A DNA stretch of 64,000 nucleotides, taken from Solibacillus sp. FSL R7-0668 (GTDB lineage: Bacteria > Bacillota > Bacilli > Bacillales_A > Planococcaceae). Position numbers and translations under genes: made by a program. The stretch covers positions 3,531,001 through 3,595,000 of the forward strand of contig NZ_JBBOUU010000001.1 of the NCBI RefSeq assembly GCF_038006205.1. Direction: 5' to 3'. Below the pieces are notes generated by a model. It worked only from the letters and a program-made list of their open reading frames with translations. It ran no database searches and was not told the DNA's origin. This document shows positions 3,155 through 13,389 of this stretch, in pieces; position 1 is the stretch's first letter; each line of letters begins with the position of its first letter.

Positions 3155-3231
3155 TTCCCACTAATTTTTATTGTATAAAATTTCGGGTAGCTAAACAATA
3201 TGGCCTCATTGTTCATATTTTGAATGGACGC

Positions 3232-3264
3232 AAAAAAAGGACTGAATTTTTAGCAATTCAATCC
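3232..3264 (-). terminator. Intrinsic terminator of the Crp/Fnr gene
   Basis: GGATTGAATT pairs with AATTCAGTCC (minus strand), followed by seven T. It closes the HMA-regulator operon. Confidence 0.82.
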
Positions 3265-3291
3265 AATTTCTCAAAGGTACTCAATTAGTTT

Positions 3292-3963
3292 CTAGACAAG
3301 CAAGAGCTCCTCTAAGTTGAGTATTTCAATTATCTTGTTAGATTTTCTTTTAATTAATCCACGCGTTTCAAGTTGGGTGAGCCTTCTACTAAGCGTTTCA
3401 GGAGTTGTACCTAAATAGGAGGCAAGATCTCTTTTGCTCATCGGTAAGGAAACTTCATTGGAACCATCGTCTAGACATTGTGTCAGAAAAATTGCAATGC
3501 GTGTTTCGATTTTCTCCGTAGCAAATAATGTCGTTTGTTTCTCAGACTCTTCTAAGCGATTAGAAAACGCTTTTAAAATATTCATTGAAATGGACGGATA
3601 CTTTGTAAGAAGTGTTTGCAAATCCGAACGCTTGATCATACAAACACTTGTATCTGAAATCGCTTCTGCATAAGATTCATGAATCGAATCATTAAATAAC
3701 GCATACTCCCCTGTAAAATCACCTGGATTTAAAATACGCACGAGCTGTTCCTTACCTGAATCGGTTAATCGGTAATTTTTCACTTTCCCTTTATTGACGA
3801 TATAAAGGGAGTCTGATTGATCGCCTGCCTGATATAACATCTCCCGCTTTTTAAAAGAAACCGAGTGCGTAATATCAAGAATTTCAGCCATTTGTTGCAC
3901 TTCTAAATGATTGAAAATCGGGACCATCGAAACACAATTTTTATGTGCCTTCATATTATTCAA
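3292..3963 (-). CDS. Crp/Fnr-family (FLP-like) transcriptional regulator
   Basis: 223 residues: a cyclic-nucleotide-binding-like beta-roll (about 15-130), dimerisation helix, and a C-terminal winged helix with SKRDLASYLGTTPETLSRRL (about 173-192). The recognition helix has the E-x-x-S-R spacing that FNR uses to read TTGAT half-sites. It lacks the FNR iron-sulphur cysteine cluster. Cys10 and Cys108 sit where Lactobacillus FLP proteins carry a redox disulphide (family knowledge, from memory), so a thiol/redox or metal signal is plausible. Its start overlaps the HMA gene by 4 bases, so the two are co-transcribed. Two Fnr-type boxes precede this operon and the adjacent ATPase gene, so I infer it controls both and itself. 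Confidence 0.87.
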   Translation of the reverse strand: MNNMKAHKNCVSMVPIFNHLEVQQMAEILDITHSVSFKKREMLYQAGDQSDSLYIVNKGKVKNYRLTDSGKEQLVRILNPGDFTGEYALFNDSIHESYAEAISDTSVCMIKRSDLQTLLTKYPSISMNILKAFSNRLEESEKQTTLFATEKIETRIAIFLTQCLDDGSNEVSLPMSKRDLASYLGTTPETLSRRLTQLETRGLIKRKSNKIIEILNLEELLLV

Positions 3964-4193
3964 ACAGCCTTTACCTTTGTTTCAATAATTGGGTATCCTA
4001 AAGCTTCAATCGCCTTTTCAATTTTTTCAATTGCGACAGCCGCCGAATCAAAGTTCAATTTCACTTTGCTTGCATTGAACAGCACTTTTACGCTTTCTTC
4101 TTCAACACCAGCTACCTTTTTTACAGCACTTTCAATCTTTTGTAAACAGGATGGACAAGATAATGTTTCTAATTGAATGGTTGCTTTTTGCAT
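3960..4193 (-). CDS. Small heavy-metal-associated (HMA) metallochaperone-like protein
   Basis: 77 residues forming one ferredoxin-like HMA domain. The metal site is CPSC (Cys13, Cys16) in LSCPSCLQKIE, a variant of the usual MxCxxC; no Met precedes it. Such proteins carry Cu, Zn or related thiophilic ions to P1B ATPases. The neighbouring ATPase lacks an N-terminal HMA domain, so this free domain probably serves that role. RBS AAAAGGGG lies 7-8 bases before the ATG; the last four bases overlap the regulator start. An Fnr-type promoter lies upstream. The metal cannot be told from sequence. Confidence 0.85.
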   Translation of the reverse strand: MQKATIQLETLSCPSCLQKIESAVKKVAGVEEESVKVLFNASKVKLNFDSAAVAIEKIEKAIEALGYPIIETKVKAV

Positions 4194-4223
4194 AATAAAC
4201 GCCCCTTTTTATATAATAAATTC

Positions 4224-4265
4224 ACTATACCCTAAGTTACTCGTAGAATAATTGACCAAGATCAA
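4224..4265 (-). promoter_or_regulatory. Fnr-type box and promoter of the HMA-regulator operon
   Basis: TTGACCAAGATCAA (4252-4265) is a TTGAY-N4-ATCAA dyad of the FNR/FLP class. A -10 hexamer TATAGT (4229-4224, minus strand) lies so that the dyad centre (4258.5) is 34.5 bases from its proximal end, i.e. at about -41.5 from the expected start: class II activator geometry. The second box before the ATPase gene has exactly the same spacing. Confidence 0.75.
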
Positions 4266-4300
4266 TTTTTATAATAATTCGTTCCTCTCTTGTTACGTTG

Positions 4301-6169
4301 CTATCCCTTCACCTTATATCGAAGCAATCGCATTCCATTAACGATTACGACTAAAATACTCAATTCATGAACAAACATCCCAATCGTCATACTCATCCAG
4401 TTACTAAACAATAATGCGCTTAGTAAAATGAAAACAACACCTACTGCAATGATAATATTTTGTTTCATATTTCTTGAAGTAGCTTTTGTTAAACCGAATG
4501 CATGTGGTAAGCGACTAAAATCAGAGTTCATCAAAACAACATCCGATGTTTCGATTGCCACGTCTGTGCCACTTCCCATAGCAATACCAATATCCGCTAA
4601 GGCAAGGGAAGGGCTATCATTTACCCCATCACCAACAAAGGCAATAATTTGTCCTTGTGCCTGCAATTTTTCGATATAGGCTGCCTTGTTCTCCGGTAGC
4701 ATATGCCCATGTGCTTCAGTTAAACCAAGCTCGCGGGCAACTAAATCAACAGTTCCCTGATTATCCCCAGAAAGGACAACGAGGTTTTGCACCCCAAGCT
4801 TCTTCAACTTTTGCAAGTCCTGCTTCACACCTGGGCGAATTTGATCCCGAATTCCTAGCAAAGCCTTTAGTTTTCCATCCATTGCCGCAATAACAAGGGA
4901 GTTCCCATTTTGCTCGAAGCGTTCAATGTCTTGTCGCGCCTTGTCATTCATTGCTATATTTTCTTGCTCCATTAAGGCAACATTTCCAACGGCAATACGA
5001 TGCCCTGCTACCTTCGCGATAATTCCCCCACCTTTTACTACTACGGTTTCTTCTACAGTCGAAAAATTCACGTCACCAATATCCTTCAAAACGGCCTTTG
5101 CTAATGGATGGTCTGATTCGCGTTCGACACTTGCTAAATAGCCAAGAAAATCCTCTATATTTTCATCATAGTATTCCTTTTCCGCCACTTCCGGATTACC
5201 GATTGTTAATGTGCCTGTTTTATCAAAGATCATCGTATCAATCTTACTGAAGTCATTAATCACCTCACTGCCCTTTAGAAGAATGCCGTGACGCGCACCA
5301 TTTCCAATGCCCGAAACATTCGACACAGGAACACCAATTACTAAGGCACCTGGACAGCCAAGCACAAGAACGGTAATGGCAAGCTCTACATTATTTGTGA
5401 AAAGCCCGACAATCACACCAAGCACGAGAACACCCGGTGTATAGTATTTCGAAAATCGATCTATAAATCGCTCTGCTTCTGATTTAGAATCCTGTGCTTC
5501 TTCCACGAGCTCGATAATACGTCCAAATGTCGTATCCCCACCCACCCGATCTGCCCGAATTTGAATCGTCCCGTTTTCTAAAATGGTGCCAGCAAATACT
5601 TCAGAGCCTTGCTTTTTACGAACTGGCAGCGATTCACCGGTAATACTTGCTTCATTAATATGAGCTTCCCCAACTAACACCGTCCCATCTACCGGTACCT
5701 TTGCGCCGGTTTTCACTAATAATAGATCCCCTTCATCAACATCATCCACATCGATTTCTTCAAAATCTCCGTTCGCCATTTGTTTCAGCGCGCTTTCCGG
5801 TGCTAATTCGGTTAATTCTTTAATGGCCGACCGCGTTTTATTCAAGGTACGCTGCTCTAAATACGAGCCAAATAAAAATAGAAATGTAACAATTGCCGAT
5901 TCTTCATAATTGCGAATGAGCACAGCCCCGATAACAGCAATCGTCACTAATACATCAATACTAACAACCTTTACTTTTAATGCCTGATACGCTTGAATCG
6001 CAATCGGTGCCACCCCAAGAATCGATGCAATGAGGAGTGACCATTCAAACAAAGCAATATTATCTAACGCAAAACGCCCAAAAAATCCAGCAATAATTAA
6101 AATCGCACTTATGACCGTAATGTGTTTTTTCTTCCCCAATATGAATCGCTGCATATCTTTTTCCTCCAT
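4301..6169 (-). CDS. P1B-type heavy-metal ATPase with CPG transport motif
   Basis: 622 residues; pumps a transition-metal ion out across the membrane using ATP. Seen in order: no N-terminal HMA domain, membrane helices, TGES (177-180, actuator), transmembrane CPG (272-274) in LGCPGALVIG, DKTGTLT (Asp316 phosphorylated), SDHP (HP locus), GDGVNDSPSLA hinge, and a last helix with HELSILVVIVNGMRLL. CPG is not the usual CPC/CPH/SPC/TPC, and the His-Glu in the last helix recalls P1B-4 pumps, so Cu(I) specificity should not be assumed; Zn, Co, Fe or other ions are possible. GGAGG 8 bases before the internal ATG at 6154 makes MQRFILG the likelier start. An Fnr-type box lies upstream. Confidence 0.9.
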   Translation of the reverse strand: MEEKDMQRFILGKKKHITVISAILIIAGFFGRFALDNIALFEWSLLIASILGVAPIAIQAYQALKVKVVSIDVLVTIAVIGAVLIRNYEESAIVTFLFLFGSYLEQRTLNKTRSAIKELTELAPESALKQMANGDFEEIDVDDVDEGDLLLVKTGAKVPVDGTVLVGEAHINEASITGESLPVRKKQGSEVFAGTILENGTIQIRADRVGGDTTFGRIIELVEEAQDSKSEAERFIDRFSKYYTPGVLVLGVIVGLFTNNVELAITVLVLGCPGALVIGVPVSNVSGIGNGARHGILLKGSEVINDFSKIDTMIFDKTGTLTIGNPEVAEKEYYDENIEDFLGYLASVERESDHPLAKAVLKDIGDVNFSTVEETVVVKGGGIIAKVAGHRIAVGNVALMEQENIAMNDKARQDIERFEQNGNSLVIAAMDGKLKALLGIRDQIRPGVKQDLQKLKKLGVQNLVVLSGDNQGTVDLVARELGLTEAHGHMLPENKAAYIEKLQAQGQIIAFVGDGVNDSPSLALADIGIAMGSGTDVAIETSDVVLMNSDFSRLPHAFGLTKATSRNMKQNIIIAVGVVFILLSALLFSNWMSMTIGMFVHELSILVVIVNGMRLLRYKVKG

Positions 6170-6185
6170 GTTTGTTATTGTGTTC

Positions 6186-6227
6186 AGTATAGAGGAGTTG
6201 GCATGAAGAATAATTGACCGAAGTCAA
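6186..6227 (-). promoter_or_regulatory. Fnr-type box and promoter of the P-type ATPase
   Basis: TTGACCGAAGTCAA (6214-6227) is a perfect 5-4-5 dyad. TATACT (6191-6186, minus strand) is the -10. Dyad centre (6220.5) to -10 proximal end is 34.5 bases, identical to the other box in this locus. Confidence 0.72.
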
Positions 6228-6565
6228 GGTTTGGGGAGGTTTTATTGATTGTGCAGTAGGTGCGTTAAATTTTAAGAAATAGGAGTAACCACAATTATAG
6301 ATGTGCCTATTTTTTAAAATACAATCATTTTTATCACTACTTAAGTAAATATCAAGACTATTTTATACACGATCGTTTTTGGTAATCGTTAGCGTATAAT
6401 ATCCACGTTTTGTCGACTGGTCCCCTAAAGGTAATACAAAGATATTTCATCGGATGTAATACAGCCTCTTAATGACGAACCTAATTCAGTTAAAAGTGAT
6501 TTAGATGATTTCTAAGAACGTGGCGATAGTTGTGACTCACTGTTATAATCTAAAAAAAGAAACGA
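6228..6565. other. Intergenic, 338 bases, nothing recognised
   Basis: AT-rich stretch between the ATPase promoter and the small membrane gene. I see no convincing gene, hairpin terminator or known RNA. Confidence 0.5.
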
Positions 6566-7032
6566 GTGATATCATTGAAAATACAAGAGAGGGCTATGTT
6601 AAACAAATTTTTGCAACTGATAGTTGTTTCGTTTGTTACTGCAATTATGTATTACTTATTAATTTCGTTTGATGTGAGTGGAAATGAAGCGCCGATTCGA
6701 TTTTCGATGTGGGAAAATTTTATCTTTTTTCCGTTAATATGTGTTGTGATGTTCGTTCCATATGTATTCTTCTATGGTTTGATAACGTTTATTTTGAAAT
6801 TTTCCATTGAAAAAATAGCGGGTTTGAGAAGTGTATTTTTCGATATTGTTTTTTATGTCGGTGTGTCATTCGCTGTTATACCAATGCTCCCTCATATGAT
6901 AAAAGGGACAGCAAATAATACCACTTACCAATTTTTTTAAACCCGTACTATTTAATTCCGTTTGTGGCGAGTATTATTCTTATAATATTCGAAGTCAATA
7001 GTAAAAAAGCTCAGAATAAACCCTTTATATAG
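6566..7032 (+). pseudogene. Small membrane protein gene interrupted by a frameshift in a T-run
   Basis: The frame opens with GTG at 6566 (an ATG at 6596 behind AGAGAGGG is an alternative) and encodes three or four hydrophobic helices, then stops at 6940 right after a run of seven T (6932-6938). Reading on in the next frame across the run gives another clean helix (LNPYYLIPFVASIILIIFEV) ending at a TAG at 7030-7032. One extra T would restore a protein of about 155 residues. So it is a broken gene, a homopolymer sequencing error or a slippage site. No family recognised. Its 3' end runs into the guaA-like direct repeat. Confidence 0.65.
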
Positions 7033-7071
7033 GGTATTCCAAGCTCTTGCTAGTTTTTATTTAATTATTCC
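7003..7071. repeat. Left copy of a guaA-3'-end direct repeat (decayed att-like site)
   Basis: About 69 bases run parallel to 9882-9951, which is the guaA terminator plus the last codons of guaA. Shared in the same order and spacing: AAAAAAGCTCAG, AAACC, AGG, CCAAGCT and TATTTAATNATTCC. The rest has diverged. Together with the integrase tail that starts at its right edge, this looks like one end of an element inserted at the guaA 3' end. Confidence 0.55.
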
Positions 7072-7250
7072 ATCGTCTTGGTTATGAGGATATTAAAACT
7101 ACCCTTAGTACTTACCTACAGTTATATCCAAATGTGAATTTTGAAATTGCAAATAGTTTGAGTGGAACAATAAAATTTGATAAATCTACAAAGAAGAAAA
7201 CACAATTTAATGGCAACCATTACACTCAGTTCAATACTAACAAAAATTAA
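7065..7250 (+). pseudogene. C-terminal remnant of a tyrosine recombinase (integrase)
   Basis: A stop-bounded frame of 61 codons with no start codon near its beginning. It reads FHRLGYEDIKTTLSTYLQLYPN and then a Lys-rich tail. This matches the last part of phage/ICE tyrosine integrases: the LGH/LGY box, DIKTTL, and the nucleophilic Tyr in STY. Everything upstream (core Arg-His-Arg region) is missing, so it cannot be active. It abuts the guaA-like repeat, where an integrase is expected in an integrated element. Confidence 0.65.
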
Positions 7251-7257
7251 GTAGACA

Positions 7258-7294
7258 AAATATGCCAAAATAGAATAGTCTGTTTTGGCATATT
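7258..7294. terminator. Bidirectional hairpin between integrase remnant and retron RT
   Basis: AATATGCCAAAA pairs with TTTTGGCATATT (12 bp) around an 11-12 base loop. On the minus strand TTTTG follows, so it can end the retron operon; it overlaps the RT stop region by two bases. Confidence 0.65.
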
Positions 7295-8327
7295 AACTAC
7301 TACTATTTAATAACTCTTTAAGAAAATCATAGCTTTCTCTTACTTCACTGTCTTGGGGATTAATATTTAAAATAAAATTAGCCATCCCCAATAAATGATA
7401 TAAATATCTTTCTTGATTTTCACTTTCAATTTTTTGAAGATGCGATTCAAGCCCAAACTTTTTTATATAATAAACCTCTTGTCTGAACTTTCTTCTATAA
7501 TTTTTTGAAGCTTGCATTTTTTCATTTACAACTATACCTGTAACTTCTTGTCTTTGATGCTGCTTTCTCACTCTAGTTTTTGATTGATTAATCCGGAATC
7601 CCTCAGACTCAAGAACATTTTTGACAAATGTAATTAATTCGCCTTCATTAAAATCCCCTGAAAAAGTTAAATCATCTGCATATCTTGTATATCTGATTTT
7701 ATTTTTACTAGCAAATGCAGCGATTCTTTTATCAATATTTATTGTAATTAAATTTGATAACATTGGACTTGTAGGCGCCCCTTGAGGTAATCCATTATTT
7801 AGTGTACAAAGATTAGCTAACATTACAGAGACCTGTTTACTGTAGCCTTGTCCTCTAAAGAAAGCAAAAACTCTTTTTTGACTAATTGATCCAAAATAAT
7901 TTTCTATATCTAAGGTTAATACCTTTTTTTGTTTCCTATGAAACTTTGCATTATCTTTTATAGAATGTCCTACCTTATAAGCTTTAGAATAGTCACTGGG
8001 TTTTAATTTAGATAGAATCTCATCCAAAATCCATCTTTGAATATATTTTAGGTTTGGTAATGGTTCTGAAATCATTCGAAAATCTACTTTATTTTTCTTT
8101 GCAATTTTAAATTCTCTATAAAAAAAACTTTGTGAATTTGACACTTTTAATAAATATATATCTTGATACCCAACCAATAAAGATAAATGCTTCTGATCAT
8201 AAATTATAGGCAAATTTTTACTAAATAAATTTTCAGCATATTCCAAGCAATTTTCGATATATTCCGAATCCTTATTATTGAAATTCGCAAAATGATAAAA
8301 TTTTAATTTATATTCTATCCATTCCAT
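7293..8327 (-). CDS. Retron reverse transcriptase
   Basis: 344 residues with the RT palm/finger order and the retron hallmarks: NAKFH (126-130; retron X motif NAxxH), LDIENYFGSI (Asp140, first catalytic Asp), QGAPTSP (182-188), YADD (216-219, catalytic Asps) and VTG (262-264; retron Y motif) followed by a basic thumb. It should copy part of the msr-msd RNA encoded just upstream into msDNA, starting from a 2'-OH of an internal G. The RBS GGTGAT lies about 20 bases past the a2 repeat, so RNA and RT share a transcript. All catalytic residues are intact. Very AT-rich, unlike guaA beside it. Last gene of the tripartite operon. Confidence 0.95.
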   Translation of the reverse strand: MEWIEYKLKFYHFANFNNKDSEYIENCLEYAENLFSKNLPIIYDQKHLSLLVGYQDIYLLKVSNSQSFFYREFKIAKKNKVDFRMISEPLPNLKYIQRWILDEILSKLKPSDYSKAYKVGHSIKDNAKFHRKQKKVLTLDIENYFGSISQKRVFAFFRGQGYSKQVSVMLANLCTLNNGLPQGAPTSPMLSNLITINIDKRIAAFASKNKIRYTRYADDLTFSGDFNEGELITFVKNVLESEGFRINQSKTRVRKQHQRQEVTGIVVNEKMQASKNYRRKFRQEVYYIKKFGLESHLQKIESENQERYLYHLLGMANFILNINPQDSEVRESYDFLKELLNSSS

Positions 8328-8347
8328 TTTTATATCACCACATATCT

Positions 8348-8580
8348 GTCCAATTACAACAACATTCTTTTTATCTTCCCATACTTCAAATTAAAGATGC
8401 CTTTCCTTTAATTTGAAGTATGCCCACGAAGGCAAAGCCTGAAGTGTTGTTAAGCTTTTAGGAGTTTTCCCTCCTGGGTAAACGGAGAAAAGCTTAACAA
8501 AAGGCTTGAAAATTCGGTTCTTATTCGCATGGCGACTCGCCAAACGTGTGATACATAATATCACCAAAATCTAATTGGAC
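8348..8580 (-). ncRNA. Retron msr-msd RNA with a1/a2 repeats
   Basis: On the minus strand the segment begins with a1 GTCCAATTA (8580-8572) and ends with its exact complement a2 TAATTGGAC (8356-8348). Between them lie: a GTGATA/TATCAC hairpin and a TGGCG/CGCCA hairpin (msr-like, about 8564-8525), a long hairpin AAGCCT..TGTTAAGCTTTT / AAAAGCTTAACA..AGGCTT (about 8505-8430), and a 17-bp perfect hairpin CATACTTCAAATTAAAG / its complement (about 8422-8381). The last one, or both long hairpins, should be the msd template. The first base of a1 is also the last base of the winged-helix gene's stop codon. Boundaries of the reverse-transcribed part are inferred. Confidence 0.88.
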
Positions 8581-8897
8581 TATTTTAAATCAAAATAATT
8601 ATCAGGTAAATAAACATCATAAACATTTAATTTACTTTCTAAAATGTATTCTTTTTGAGGGCTAATAAATAATTCTGCGTTTTTTCTTTTATGTTTTTTA
8701 TTATAATTCATTAATGCTTCATGTCCATTTTTCGTTAGTAATACATCATCTGAAATAAATTCAACATAACCCATCTCAATTATTTTCACCATCATCATAG
8801 CAACATCTGAATATTCATAACCTTGATTAACCAAATTATCAATATTCCCATTTTTCTTAATTAGTTGCATTAATAATATTATTTCATCATTTAACAT
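8580..8897 (-). CDS. Retron-associated winged-helix protein
   Basis: 105 residues. Residues about 1-65 read as a winged helix: EIILLMQLIKKNG, a recognition-like helix around SDVAMMMVKIIEMGYV, a wing with DDVLLTKNGHEAL, then a basic linker and a tail with no known domain. It sits 3 bases after the PRTase gene; its RBS AAGGTGAAAT contains that gene's stop. Its own stop overlaps the a1 repeat of the retron RNA. A small DNA-binding partner beside a PRTase is what I recall of type III retrons; it may tether or inhibit the effector through msDNA. Role inferred from context only. Confidence 0.75.
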   Translation of the reverse strand: MLNDEIILLMQLIKKNGNIDNLVNQGYEYSDVAMMMVKIIEMGYVEFISDDVLLTKNGHEALMNYNKKHKRKNAELFISPQKEYILESKLNVYDVYLPDNYFDLK

Positions 8898-8900
8898 ATT

Positions 8901-9761
8901 TCACCTTGGAAACGGAGCTTTCCTTCCTTTTCTTTCCTTCCAAAAGACAGGAAATGTGTTATTTGGTGTTCTAATTAAAGATATCAAAGCTTCAGAACCT
9001 TTAAAACCTAACTTTTCATTTTTATGTACTTTTATTTTACTTTCTATAGTGTTCATTAGCATTAATTTTTCTGAAAGTTCTTCTTCAGTATAATTATCAG
9101 TTATTCCTTTATTGAAAGTTAAATGAGTGTACAATAAAATATTTGATTCCCTTAGAAAATCTTCCCCTATTTGCAATGCAGCTATTGTAAGTATTACTAT
9201 CTTCTCTTTTCTTATTCCTTTGTCTATTAAAAATTTCACAGCACTTTCCGCTGTCTCACCTGTACCTATAAAATCATCCACTAGAATCAATAAACTATCT
9301 TCATCATTAATCTGATCGGATTCTATTTGTAATCCATCAACATAGATACTTTTTTTCTCTGCAAGTATTGGTGTATTACAAATAATGTTTCTGAGTAAAT
9401 ATTGTACAGTTGTAGAACTTTTACTCTTCCCAATATCTTCTGGTGCAATTAATGGTGCTATATAAATCTTATTTATTCCAATTAAATTTGTTGCATTTTC
9501 ATTTGCAAATTTACGCAATAAATTTTTTAAATACAGTATATAGTCATTCACTTCAATTCTTGTATATCTCTTAGTTAGCTCCAATACCAGTTCTTGCTGT
9601 TCTTCATTCAATTCTGCTATCATGGTACAAAATCTATTAAATGCGCTAAATTCATTTCCTCCATGCTCAATTTCCCACGAATTATTATTAAAGATTCTAA
9701 CTATTCTAGCGAAAACATGAGAAGGGATTTCATCATTTTTTTTTTGCAACATTACTTTCAC
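8901..9761 (-). CDS. Retron-associated phosphoribosyltransferase-fold protein (putative effector)
   Basis: 286 residues. The key motif is SLLILVDDFIGTGETAESAV (about 156-175): a hydrophobic strand, two acidic residues and a GTGET loop, the PRPP-binding signature of type I phosphoribosyltransferases, followed by a second strand (KIVILTIAAL). The N-terminal 100 residues are helical and match no housekeeping PRTase I know. First gene of the retron operon, so the likely toxic or nucleotide-modifying effector. GTG at 9761 or ATG at 9752 (better spacing to GAGTG) may be the start. Substrate unknown. Confidence 0.8.
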   Translation of the reverse strand: MKVMLQKKNDEIPSHVFARIVRIFNNNSWEIEHGGNEFSAFNRFCTMIAELNEEQQELVLELTKRYTRIEVNDYILYLKNLLRKFANENATNLIGINKIYIAPLIAPEDIGKSKSSTTVQYLLRNIICNTPILAEKKSIYVDGLQIESDQINDEDSLLILVDDFIGTGETAESAVKFLIDKGIRKEKIVILTIAALQIGEDFLRESNILLYTHLTFNKGITDNYTEEELSEKLMLMNTIESKIKVHKNEKLGFKGSEALISLIRTPNNTFPVFWKERKGRKAPFPR

Positions 9762-9881
9762 TCTTTATAATTTATTTATAAAAAATACATTTATCTCTTA
9801 TTATTGTAAAATAAAACAGAAATATAGTCATTAACTTTTTTATACAACTAAGAGTTGGTATCAAAATCGGTATCACCAAAC

Positions 9882-9951
9882 AAAAAAGCTCAGCAGAAAC
9901 CTTATCAAATAAGGCTCTACCAAGCTTTTTAGGGTGCTATTTAATCATTCC
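9882..9951 (-). terminator. guaA terminator and right copy of the direct repeat
   Basis: Past the guaA stop, AAAGCTTGG..CCTTAT..ATAAGG..AGCTTTTTTG folds into a two-part hairpin with a T-run, the guaA terminator. The same 70 bases, including the final guaA codons, are mirrored in diverged form at 7003-7071, which brackets the retron island. Confidence 0.7.
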
Positions 9952-11495
9952 CACTCGATCGTAGCAGGCGGTTTACTCGTAATATCATACAGCACGCGGT
10001 TCACGCCTTGTACTTCGTTAACTAAACGCACCGAGATTTTCTCAAGAACATCGTAAGGAATACGTGCCCAGTCGGATGTCATGCCGTCGATTGATGTGAC
10101 GCCGCGAATACCGATTGCATAGTCGTATGTGCGGCCATCGCCCATTACGCCTACTGAACGGATGTCTGGTAGTACACAGAAGTATTGCCAAATGTCGCGT
10201 TCAAGTCCTGCTAATTTGATTTCTTCACGTAGGATGAAGTCAGCTTCGCGCACGATTTCTAACTTTTCTTCTGTTACTTCGCCAAGTACGCGGATACCTA
10301 AGCCCGGTCCTGGGAATGGTTGACGCCATACTACCGCTTCTGGAAGACCTAATTCTAAACCTAAAGCACGCACTTCGTCTTTGAATAATGTATTTAATGG
10401 CTCGATTAACTCAAACTTCATGTCCTCCGGTAATCCGCCTACATTATGGTGAGATTTGATTGTTTGCGCAGTTGCTGTACCTGACTCGATAATGTCCGTG
10501 TAAAGCGTGCCTTGCGCTAAGAAGTCCATGTTTTCAAGCTTTGCTGATTCTTCATCAAATACGTAAATGAATTCGTTACCGATGATTTTACGTTTTTGCT
10601 CTGGATCCGAAACACCTTTTAACTTGTTCATGAAACGTTCACGGGCATCAATTTTGATTACTTTCATATCGAAATCTTCCGTGAATGTTTTCATTACTTG
10701 CTCTACTTCGCCTTTACGGTTTAAGTTATGATCCACAAACATACATGTTAATTGGTCACCGATTGCTTTATGAATTAAGACCGCAACGACTGAGGAGTCA
10801 ACTCCGCCTGATAATGCACAAAGAACTTGCTTGTCGCCTACTTGCTCGCGGATTTTTGCGATTTCGATGTCGATGAAGTTCGCCATTGACCAGTCGCCTT
10901 TAGCATTACAAACATTGAATACAAAGTTTTTCAACAAGTCATTGCCGTAGACAGAGTGACGTACTTCTGGGTGGAATTGTACAGCATACAGTTTACGCTC
11001 AACATTTGCCATTGCAGCGATTGGGCAGGCTGGACTCGTTGCGATGACTTCAAAGCCTTGTGGAACAGCTGTTACATGATCACCATGGCTCATCCAAACA
11101 ACTTGGTTTTTCGGTAAATCGCCGAATAATAGGTTTTCCGTCGTTACATCAATTTCCGCTTTACCATATTCACGCGTTTCCGCACCTTCTACTTTACCAC
11201 CTTGTGTATGCGCCATTAGCTGCATACCATAGCAAATGCCTAGAATCGGTAAACCTAATTCAAAAATCGCCGGATCTACCTTGAATGCAGATTCATCATA
11301 AACAGAGTTTGGACCACCTGAAAATACGATCCCTACAGCGTTCATACCTTTAATGTCCTCAGCCGTAATTGTATGCGGGTGTAATTCAGAGAACACACCA
11401 AATTCACGGATACGACGCGTAATTAATTGGTTGAACTGACTTCCGAAGTCAAGAACGACAATCTTTTCTTGCTCTTTTAATAAAGGAGTTGACAC
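9945..11495 (-). CDS. guaA: GMP synthase (glutamine-hydrolysing)
   Basis: 516 residues; converts XMP to GMP with ATP and glutamine, last step of guanine nucleotide synthesis, in the cytosol. N-terminal class I glutaminase with the full triad (Cys88 in GICYGM, His175 and Glu177 in FHPEV), then the PP-loop ATPase SGGVDSS (229-235) and the C-terminal dimerisation domain with [12 protein letters not shown] and the KPPATIEWE end. Start is GTG at 11495, with AGAGGTG 8 bases upstream. A purine riboswitch and terminator lie in the leader. A glutaminase-deficient paralogue is the next gene upstream. The 3' end appears to have served as an insertion site. Confidence 0.98.
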
Positions 11496-12084: not shown

Positions 12085-13389
12085 TCACTCCCACTCAATC
12101 GTCCCGCCTGGTTTTGGTGATAAATCGTAGCACACGCGGTTGACGTGTTTGACTTCATTAATAATACGGTCTGTAATTTTTAATAAAATCGGCCATTCAA
12201 TTTGTTCGATTGTTGCCGTCATTGCGTCAATTGTATTGACCGCGCGAATGATTACTGGGTACTCATACGTACGCTCGTTGTTGCGCACACCTACTGATTT
12301 GAAGTTTGGTACAACTGTGAAGTACTGCCATACCTTTTGATCTAAGCCTGCAAGTGCAAATTCTTCACGTAAAATCGCATCGGATTCACGAACTGCTTCT
12401 AGACGGTCTGGCTCGATTTCGCCTAACACACGTACCCCTAAGCCTGGGCCTGGGAATGGTTGGCGGTACACCATATCATGAGGTAATCCTAGCTCAACAC
12501 CACATGCACGTACTTCATCTTTGAATAATTGGAATAATGGTTCTACTAATTCAAATTGTAAGTCCTCTGGTAAGCCACCTACATTGTGATGTGACTTTAC
12601 CACTTTATGTGTTTTCGTACCGGATTCCACGATATCCGGATAAATTGTTCCTTGTGCTAAGAAATCAATGCCCTCTAACTTACGCGCTTCTTCTTCAAAG
12701 ACACGGATAAATTCATTCCCGATAATTTTACGCTTTTCTTCTGGCTCGCCTACACCTTTTAGCTTACCTAAGAAGCGCTCACTTGCATCTACGTAAATAA
12801 GATTTTCTTCAAGGTCTTTTTCGAACATTTCGATTACACCTTCAGATTCATTTTTACGCATTAAGCCGTGATTCACGTGTACGCACACTAATTGTTTGCC
12901 GATTGCTTTAATTAATAATGCCGCTACAACTGAAGAATCGACACCGCCTGAAAGCGCTAAAAGCACCTTTTTATCCCCAACTTGTTGGCGAACTAAGGCA
13001 ACTTGATCTTCAATGAAGTTTTTCATATTCCAGTTTGCTTCTGCCTTACATGTATTGAAAACAAAGTCCTTTAAAAAGGCTTTCGTTTCTTCTTCGTTTG
13101 GCCATTTATCTAATGTTTGAGATGCTTGAGTAGATGGGTGCTCTACGCTAATAACAGGAATGTTTAACTTATAAATTTCATCTAATACGTCGATTGCTTC
13201 ACCATCAACGATATTATTGACACCGCCATTTAAAATAATCCCTTTTACCGTTTTTAAATCTTGGATATTTTGTGCGGTAATATCATGTGGATGAATCTCA
13301 CTATATACACCTAATTCACGTATCCAACGAGCTATCGTTGTATTTTCACTGCTACCTAAATCTAATACTAAAATATTATCCTGTTTCAA
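12085..13389 (-). CDS. GMP synthase paralogue without a functional glutaminase domain
   Basis: 434 residues. The ATPase part is intact (SGGVDSS 147-153, [25 protein letters not shown]-terminal GGTIEWE) and closely follows GuaA. The N-terminal glutaminase is cut: about 80 residues are gone between GuaA positions 92 and 178, the catalytic Cys is replaced (PVISVEHPS where GuaA has PILGICYGM), and the His-Glu pair is deleted. It could only use free ammonia, or a partner's glutaminase, or do another job. TTG start with AGGAGG about 10 bases before. It follows the transglutaminase gene and precedes guaA. A well-kept frame argues against a dead copy. Confidence 0.85.
   Translation of the reverse strand: MKQDNILVLDLGSSENTTIARWIRELGVYSEIHPHDITAQNIQDLKTVKGIILNGGVNNIVDGEAIDVLDEIYKLNIPVISVEHPSTQASQTLDKWPNEEETKAFLKDFVFNTCKAEANWNMKNFIEDQVALVRQQVGDKKVLLALSGGVDSSVVAALLIKAIGKQLVCVHVNHGLMRKNESEGVIEMFEKDLEENLIYVDASERFLGKLKGVGEPEEKRKIIGNEFIRVFEEEARKLEGIDFLAQGTIYPDIVESGTKTHKVVKSHHNVGGLPEDLQFELVEPLFQLFKDEVRACGVELGLPHDMVYRQPFPGPGLGVRVLGEIEPDRLEAVRESDAILREEFALAGLDQKVWQYFTVVPNFKSVGVRNNERTYEYPVIIRAVNTIDAMTATIEQIEWPILLKITDRIINEVKHVNRVCYDLSPKPGGTIEWE

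Follow-up and report, generated by a model that had tools for sequence, protein, structure and literature searches.

The window, the whole 64,000-nucleotide stretch of Solibacillus sp. FSL R7-0668 DNA analysed here, contains a putative metal-export locus with the following features:

3292..3963, minus strand: FLP-type Crp/Fnr regulator gene, overlapping the stop codon of the HMA gene; Cys10, Cys108 and ETLSR at residues 189-193
3960..4193, minus strand: gene for an HMA-domain metal carrier of 77 aa with a CPSC motif (PF00403, 1.6e-12)
4224..4229, minus strand: -10 hexamer TATAGT of the HMA-flp promoter; 22-bp spacing conserved
4252..4265, minus strand: box 1, a predicted FLP/Fnr site; dyad centre 4258.5, at -41.5 of the HMA-flp promoter; present before the HMA genes of relatives
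4301..6154, minus strand: P1B-type metal ATPase gene (ORF opens at 6169), with CPG in TM4, HELS in TM6 and no N-terminal HMA domain
6186..6191, minus strand: -10 hexamer TATACT of the ATPase promoter; identical in most relatives
6214..6227, minus strand: box 2, a predicted FLP/Fnr site; dyad centre 6220.5, at -41.5 of the ATPase promoter; conserved in relatives

The two FLP/Fnr boxes, TTGACCAAGATCAA (box 1, 4252-4265) and TTGACCGAAGTCAA (box 2, 6214-6227), have a 13-base flank, AGAATAATTGACC, in common. On the minus strand, box 1 is followed by TATAGT (4229-4224) and box 2 by TATACT (6191-6186), in both promoters at a distance of 22 bp. With +1 set seven bases past the -10 hexamer, this spacing to a good -10 places both dyads at -41.5. 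The coordinates and geometry agree with the original prediction, as does the location of the boxes ahead of the HMA-regulator operon and the ATPase gene, an arrangement that is also kept in relatives. The number of exact boxes in the window (two, versus 0.58 expected) is by itself weak evidence, since at least two were also obtained in 8 of 100 shuffles.

A scan of relatives of the ATPase covered 28 loci from Bacilli, Clostridia/Tissierellia and one Spirochaetota bin. These loci hold 49 exact boxes, situated upstream of the ATPase gene and the HMA gene, and a TA...T hexamer is found at exactly 22 bp from 46 of them; at control spacings of 17 and 27 bp, the same boxes yield 5 and 18 such hexamers, respectively. 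The conservation in relatives on which the original prediction had been staked is therefore observed. Second, tandem copies of the HMA gene in relatives have no box. The box count in the window, being only mildly over expectation, would suit two chance palindromes, but we consider the probability of this explanation to be negligible and rejected it on the conservation in relatives: both the spacing and the target genes are conserved across Bacillota and on plasmids.

Within the window's own family (Planococcaceae), a second clade of the ATPase, 46-48 per cent identical, is present in 19 of the 151 genomes searched. Boxes were found in all 14 second-clade loci that were fetched, with a 22-bp spacer in most, and they mostly precede the HMA gene within an HMA-ATPase(-FLP) operon. 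Boxes at the locus are present in every one of the 21 assessable genomes that have an FLP match at E<=1e-30, versus one of the five genomes without such a match, the exception being a bin that may be incomplete (Fisher P-value of ~0.0003 by hand arithmetic, which overstates independence because the loci are related). These data bear on whether the boxes are instead the targets of a different host Crp/Fnr protein, such as an anaerobic Fnr, with the linked FLP having other targets. The genome does encode three further Crp-type HTH proteins that score above the family cut-off, but the closest of the remaining homologues (236 aa, 29 per cent) has REMINR rather than ExxSR as its recognition helix, the boxes track FLP presence across genomes, and FLP genes on Lactobacillales plasmids bear boxes of their own. 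We consider service by another host protein highly improbable, and favour the linked FLP as the protein that recognizes the boxes.

Boxes also occur with several other genes at related loci. A protein of ~100 aa, without a convincing Pfam match, is encoded directly upstream of the ATPase gene and has its own FLP box (L011:1794-2096, L028:3680-3980). In one related genus, a flavodoxin gene and a gene for a CopD-like membrane protein are preceded by FLP-type boxes with good -10s (L136:2262-2744, L137:1945-2439). In another locus, a broken ATPase remnant of 112 aa (L138:4097-3600, minus strand) still keeps its box and -10.

Across the host genome, TTGAY-N4-RTCAA has 44 exact matches, compared to 11 for a reversed control pattern. 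A TA...T hexamer is located 21-23 bp from 8 of the 44 boxes, and the six of these that lie outside the window are mostly in coding sequence or without a suitable gene. The genome-wide scan for boxes at -41.5, a check suggested with the original prediction, thus leaves the two window sites as the only ones at which this geometry occurs together with a good -10 and a downstream gene. One intergenic box with 21-bp spacing (L032) is a possible, weak additional candidate site; apart from it, the scan led us to reject a wider chromosomal regulon in this host. The predicted regulon is local, and consists of the HMA carrier, FLP and the ATPase, with the addition of dps in plasmid versions.

In a set of 122 distinct box-promoters from the fetched DNA, in which the box and the TA...T columns are fixed by construction because the set was selected for both, the -10 is strong (usually TATACT) and matches to the -35 consensus mostly number two to three of six, no better than in shuffled spacers. 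A poor -35 element together with a site at -41.5 is the class II activator promoter design known from FNR and CRP, and a -35 that is no better than shuffles is expected of activator-dependent promoters. The -41.5 position implies activation, short of proof. The autoregulatory layout proposed earlier is found in the sequence and is conserved in relatives, with box 1 heading the HMA-flp operon; since flp belongs to this operon, the circuit activates itself provided that FLP is an activator. The opposite sign, in which FLP is a repressor that is removed by metal or oxidation, has precedents, as derepression controls many metal-export genes and Crp/Fnr proteins can repress. Nevertheless, we regard such a negative circuit as very unlikely, given that the -41.5 position is fixed in nearly all promoters and the -35 is no better than shuffles, both of which fit activation. 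Class II self-activation, as judged from sequence, appears well supported.

The regulator has a cNMP-binding-type domain (PF00027, 1.9e-23) and a Crp HTH domain (PF13545, 3.8e-18). The claim that its E-x-x-S-R helix suits TTGAY half-sites is borne out by an alignment of 46 FLP sequences, in which E189 and R193 are kept in all and Ser192 in 45, with E-T-x-S-R in 45 of the 46. Cys10, which is N-terminal, and Cys108, in the sensor domain, are invariant in the same alignment (46/46). The only other cysteine of the regulator, Cys163, is not conserved, and the four-cysteine [4Fe-4S] motif is absent. The two invariant cysteines and the absence of the FeS cluster motif rule out a Bacillus-type Fnr identity, and the regulator is best assigned, by these sequence features, to the FLP branch of Crp/Fnr. 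FLP proteins have been known since the 1990s, and those of L. casei and L. lactis have two cysteines ~98 residues apart. By analogy with L. casei FLP (works cited within PMC5039431), the signal most likely lies in the state of Cys10 and Cys108 as a pair. The HMA protein is CopZ-like, yet its profile score is under the CopZ cut-off.

The ATPase matches TIGR01525 (2.7e-164; 548 bits against a cut-off of 346) and contains DKTGT. Translation probably begins with the ATG at 6154, which follows GGAGG (6167-6163), rather than at 6169, since relatives begin there with MQRY/F.... The TM4 motif is CPG in the window ATPase, in all 28 relatives, in the second clade and in the plasmid copies, and also in an ATPase that is encoded on a Microbacterium plasmid in linkage with a Crp/Fnr gene. 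Neither the window ATPase nor any FLP-linked copy tested has the SPC of P1B-4 pumps in TM4. The CPC of P1B-1 and P1B-2 pumps is likewise absent from TM4 of the window ATPase, and CPC paralogues are encoded separately in the same genome, where the TM4 motifs of the other P1B pumps are CPC, SPC or CPH. In TM6, HE[LAGV]S retains the HE and S of the P1B-4 motifs HEGGT and HEGST (the latter being that of sCoaT in the alignment), and the rest differs. On a phylogenetic tree, the long branches of the outgroups prevent a firm placement of the CPG group with respect to P1B-2 and P1B-4. We found no description of the CPG motif in the open-access literature. This membrane site falls into none of the P1B motif classes that we checked and may have a metal preference of its own. 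The separate HMA protein, with its CPSC motif, probably supplies the N-terminal domain that the ATPase lacks.

The HMA-ATPase-FLP unit with boxes is also found on plasmids of Enterococcus, Listeria, Ligilactobacillus, Lactococcus, Leuconostoc and Staphylococcus, where dps and flp can each have a box of their own with unchanged spacing. Genes for the iron exporter FetAB or for VIT1/CCC1 are located near two of the plasmid copies, and no exact box precedes the FetAB or VIT genes in those two plasmids. The neighbours of other copies include cadmium resistance genes (CadD) and, beside one copy, a multicopper oxidase. A plasmid cluster of Dps, FetAB and Fnr returned no match in the open-access literature.

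The ATPase is absent from 15 of 15 congeners. None of them has the interval 3203-9880, both of its flanks are conserved, and the distance from flank to flank in the congeners ranges from ~2 to 10 kb. The nearest ATPase, 86 per cent identical, is from Cerasibacillus. Because the module is absent in congeners between conserved flanks and its nearest ATPase is in Cerasibacillus, we interpret it as acquired by transfer, at what the genome comparison marks as a variable cargo site. A matching switch, spacing and gene set recur on plasmids and in dozens of bacteria, which indicates that the module is mobile and probably redox-controlled.

The same cargo site, which extends over 3203-9880 between an MFS gene and guaA and is absent or replaced in the 15 congeners, also contains a complete type III-A retron (7293-9761, minus strand) composed of a reverse transcriptase (PADLOC RT_III-A, 4.7e-151), a winged-helix protein and a PRTase effector; inverted repeats around 8380-8501 resemble the ncRNA of the retron. 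Beside guaA (9945-11495) is a second guaA-like gene (12085-13389, minus strand) with a shortened glutamine-amidotransferase domain, and some congeners have a similar pair.

The boxes, their geometry, the gene set, the type of regulator and the transfer are supported by these comparisons, and we consider it quite probable that the locus is a mobile module for metal export that has a local FLP class II switch of its own, two promoters and an HMA-fed CPG pump. In the mechanism that we propose, FLP would bind TTGAY-N4-RTCAA sites whose centre is at -41.5 and would act as a class II activator of two promoters that have no -35 element. The first would drive the HMA carrier and flp, creating positive feedback, and the second the P1B ATPase with CPG in its membrane metal site. 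The HMA protein, in place of the absent N-terminal metal-binding domain, would pass metal to the pump, and the ATPase would export the metal so received. Sensing would most likely occur through a dithiol/disulphide switch of Cys10 and Cys108, or through metal bound by that pair. Activation, the sensing step and the cargo are what we infer for the module. In outline, this agrees with the earlier interpretation.

As the cargo, iron is slightly favoured, if tentatively and at less than even odds, over zinc/cadmium or copper. The lean toward iron is circumstantial and is due to the presence of Dps in the plasmid regulon, to the FetAB or VIT1/CCC1 genes nearby on two plasmids, and to the resemblance of the TM6 HExS to P1B-4 pumps, a group that includes exporters of Fe(II). 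The window's own module is without dps. More doubtful is a broader version, in which the CPG/HExS ATPase would be a separate P1B subtype that exports iron with the HMA carrier, under a thiol-redox FLP instead of Fur/PerR, with interphylum spread on plasmids and islands and a plasmid form coupled to Dps. Alternatively, an unchanged circuit would serve to export zinc/cadmium or copper instead of iron, and dps would be only a general oxidative-stress partner; this reading, which rivals the cargo part only, we hold to be slightly more probable than not. It agrees with CopZ as the closest score of the HMA protein, with a CopD-like gene that has a box in one relative (a weak Pfam match, 0.0047), with the CadD or multicopper oxidase genes that adjoin some copies, and with zinc as the subject of the L. 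lactis flp work, as cited in PMC6196286. On the other hand, CPG in TM4 is unlike the CPC of Zn/Cu pumps (and also unlike the SPC of P1B-4), and the neighbouring metal genes have no box.

The module shares features with four kinds of known systems. L. lactis FlpA/FlpB and L. casei FLP likewise have the Crp/Fnr fold, the ExxSR helix, two cysteines and a link to metal and oxidative stress, whereas the system described here is on a Bacillales chromosome, with a co-operonic HMA gene and a paired CPG-type ATPase. In L. lactis, one study found the proposed FlpA motif to be missing upstream of flpB (PMC3547956). We set aside work on Lactococcus llmg_0524-0526, as it concerns other zinc proteins. With the Fe(II)-exporting P1B-4 ATPases (PfeT, FrvA, PmtA, CtpD and Nia), the module shares a P1B pump that has no N-terminal HMA domain and an HE motif in TM6, but their TM4 motif is SPC rather than CPG, and their known regulators are Fur and/or PerR (PMC7762939) instead of a Crp/Fnr protein. 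CopZ-CopA and other pairs of an HMA carrier and a P1B pump similarly encode a small HMA carrier beside the pump; here, however, the motif is CPG and not CPC, the pump has no HMA domain fused to it, and FLP is the switch in place of CsoR, CopY or CueR. Finally, class II promoters of E. coli FNR also have TTGAT-N4-ATCAA at -41.5, an ExxSR helix in the regulator and no good -35, but the regulator described here is without the FeS cysteine cluster and its regulon is the metal module alone.

The unit of HMA carrier, CPG ATPase and FLP, often with dps, is conserved with one rigid promoter design and in this respect amounts to a concrete candidate regulon. Its occurrence on plasmids of Enterococcus, Listeria, Ligilactobacillus, Leuconostoc and Staphylococcus makes it probable that the unit contributes to the tolerance of metals and peroxide in food and in hosts. 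Since an FlpA metal-homeostasis regulon has been predicted for Lactobacillales (PMC3616900), this kind of system is already known; what is new is the pump with CPG, the occurrence in Bacillales and the fixed unit of four genes.
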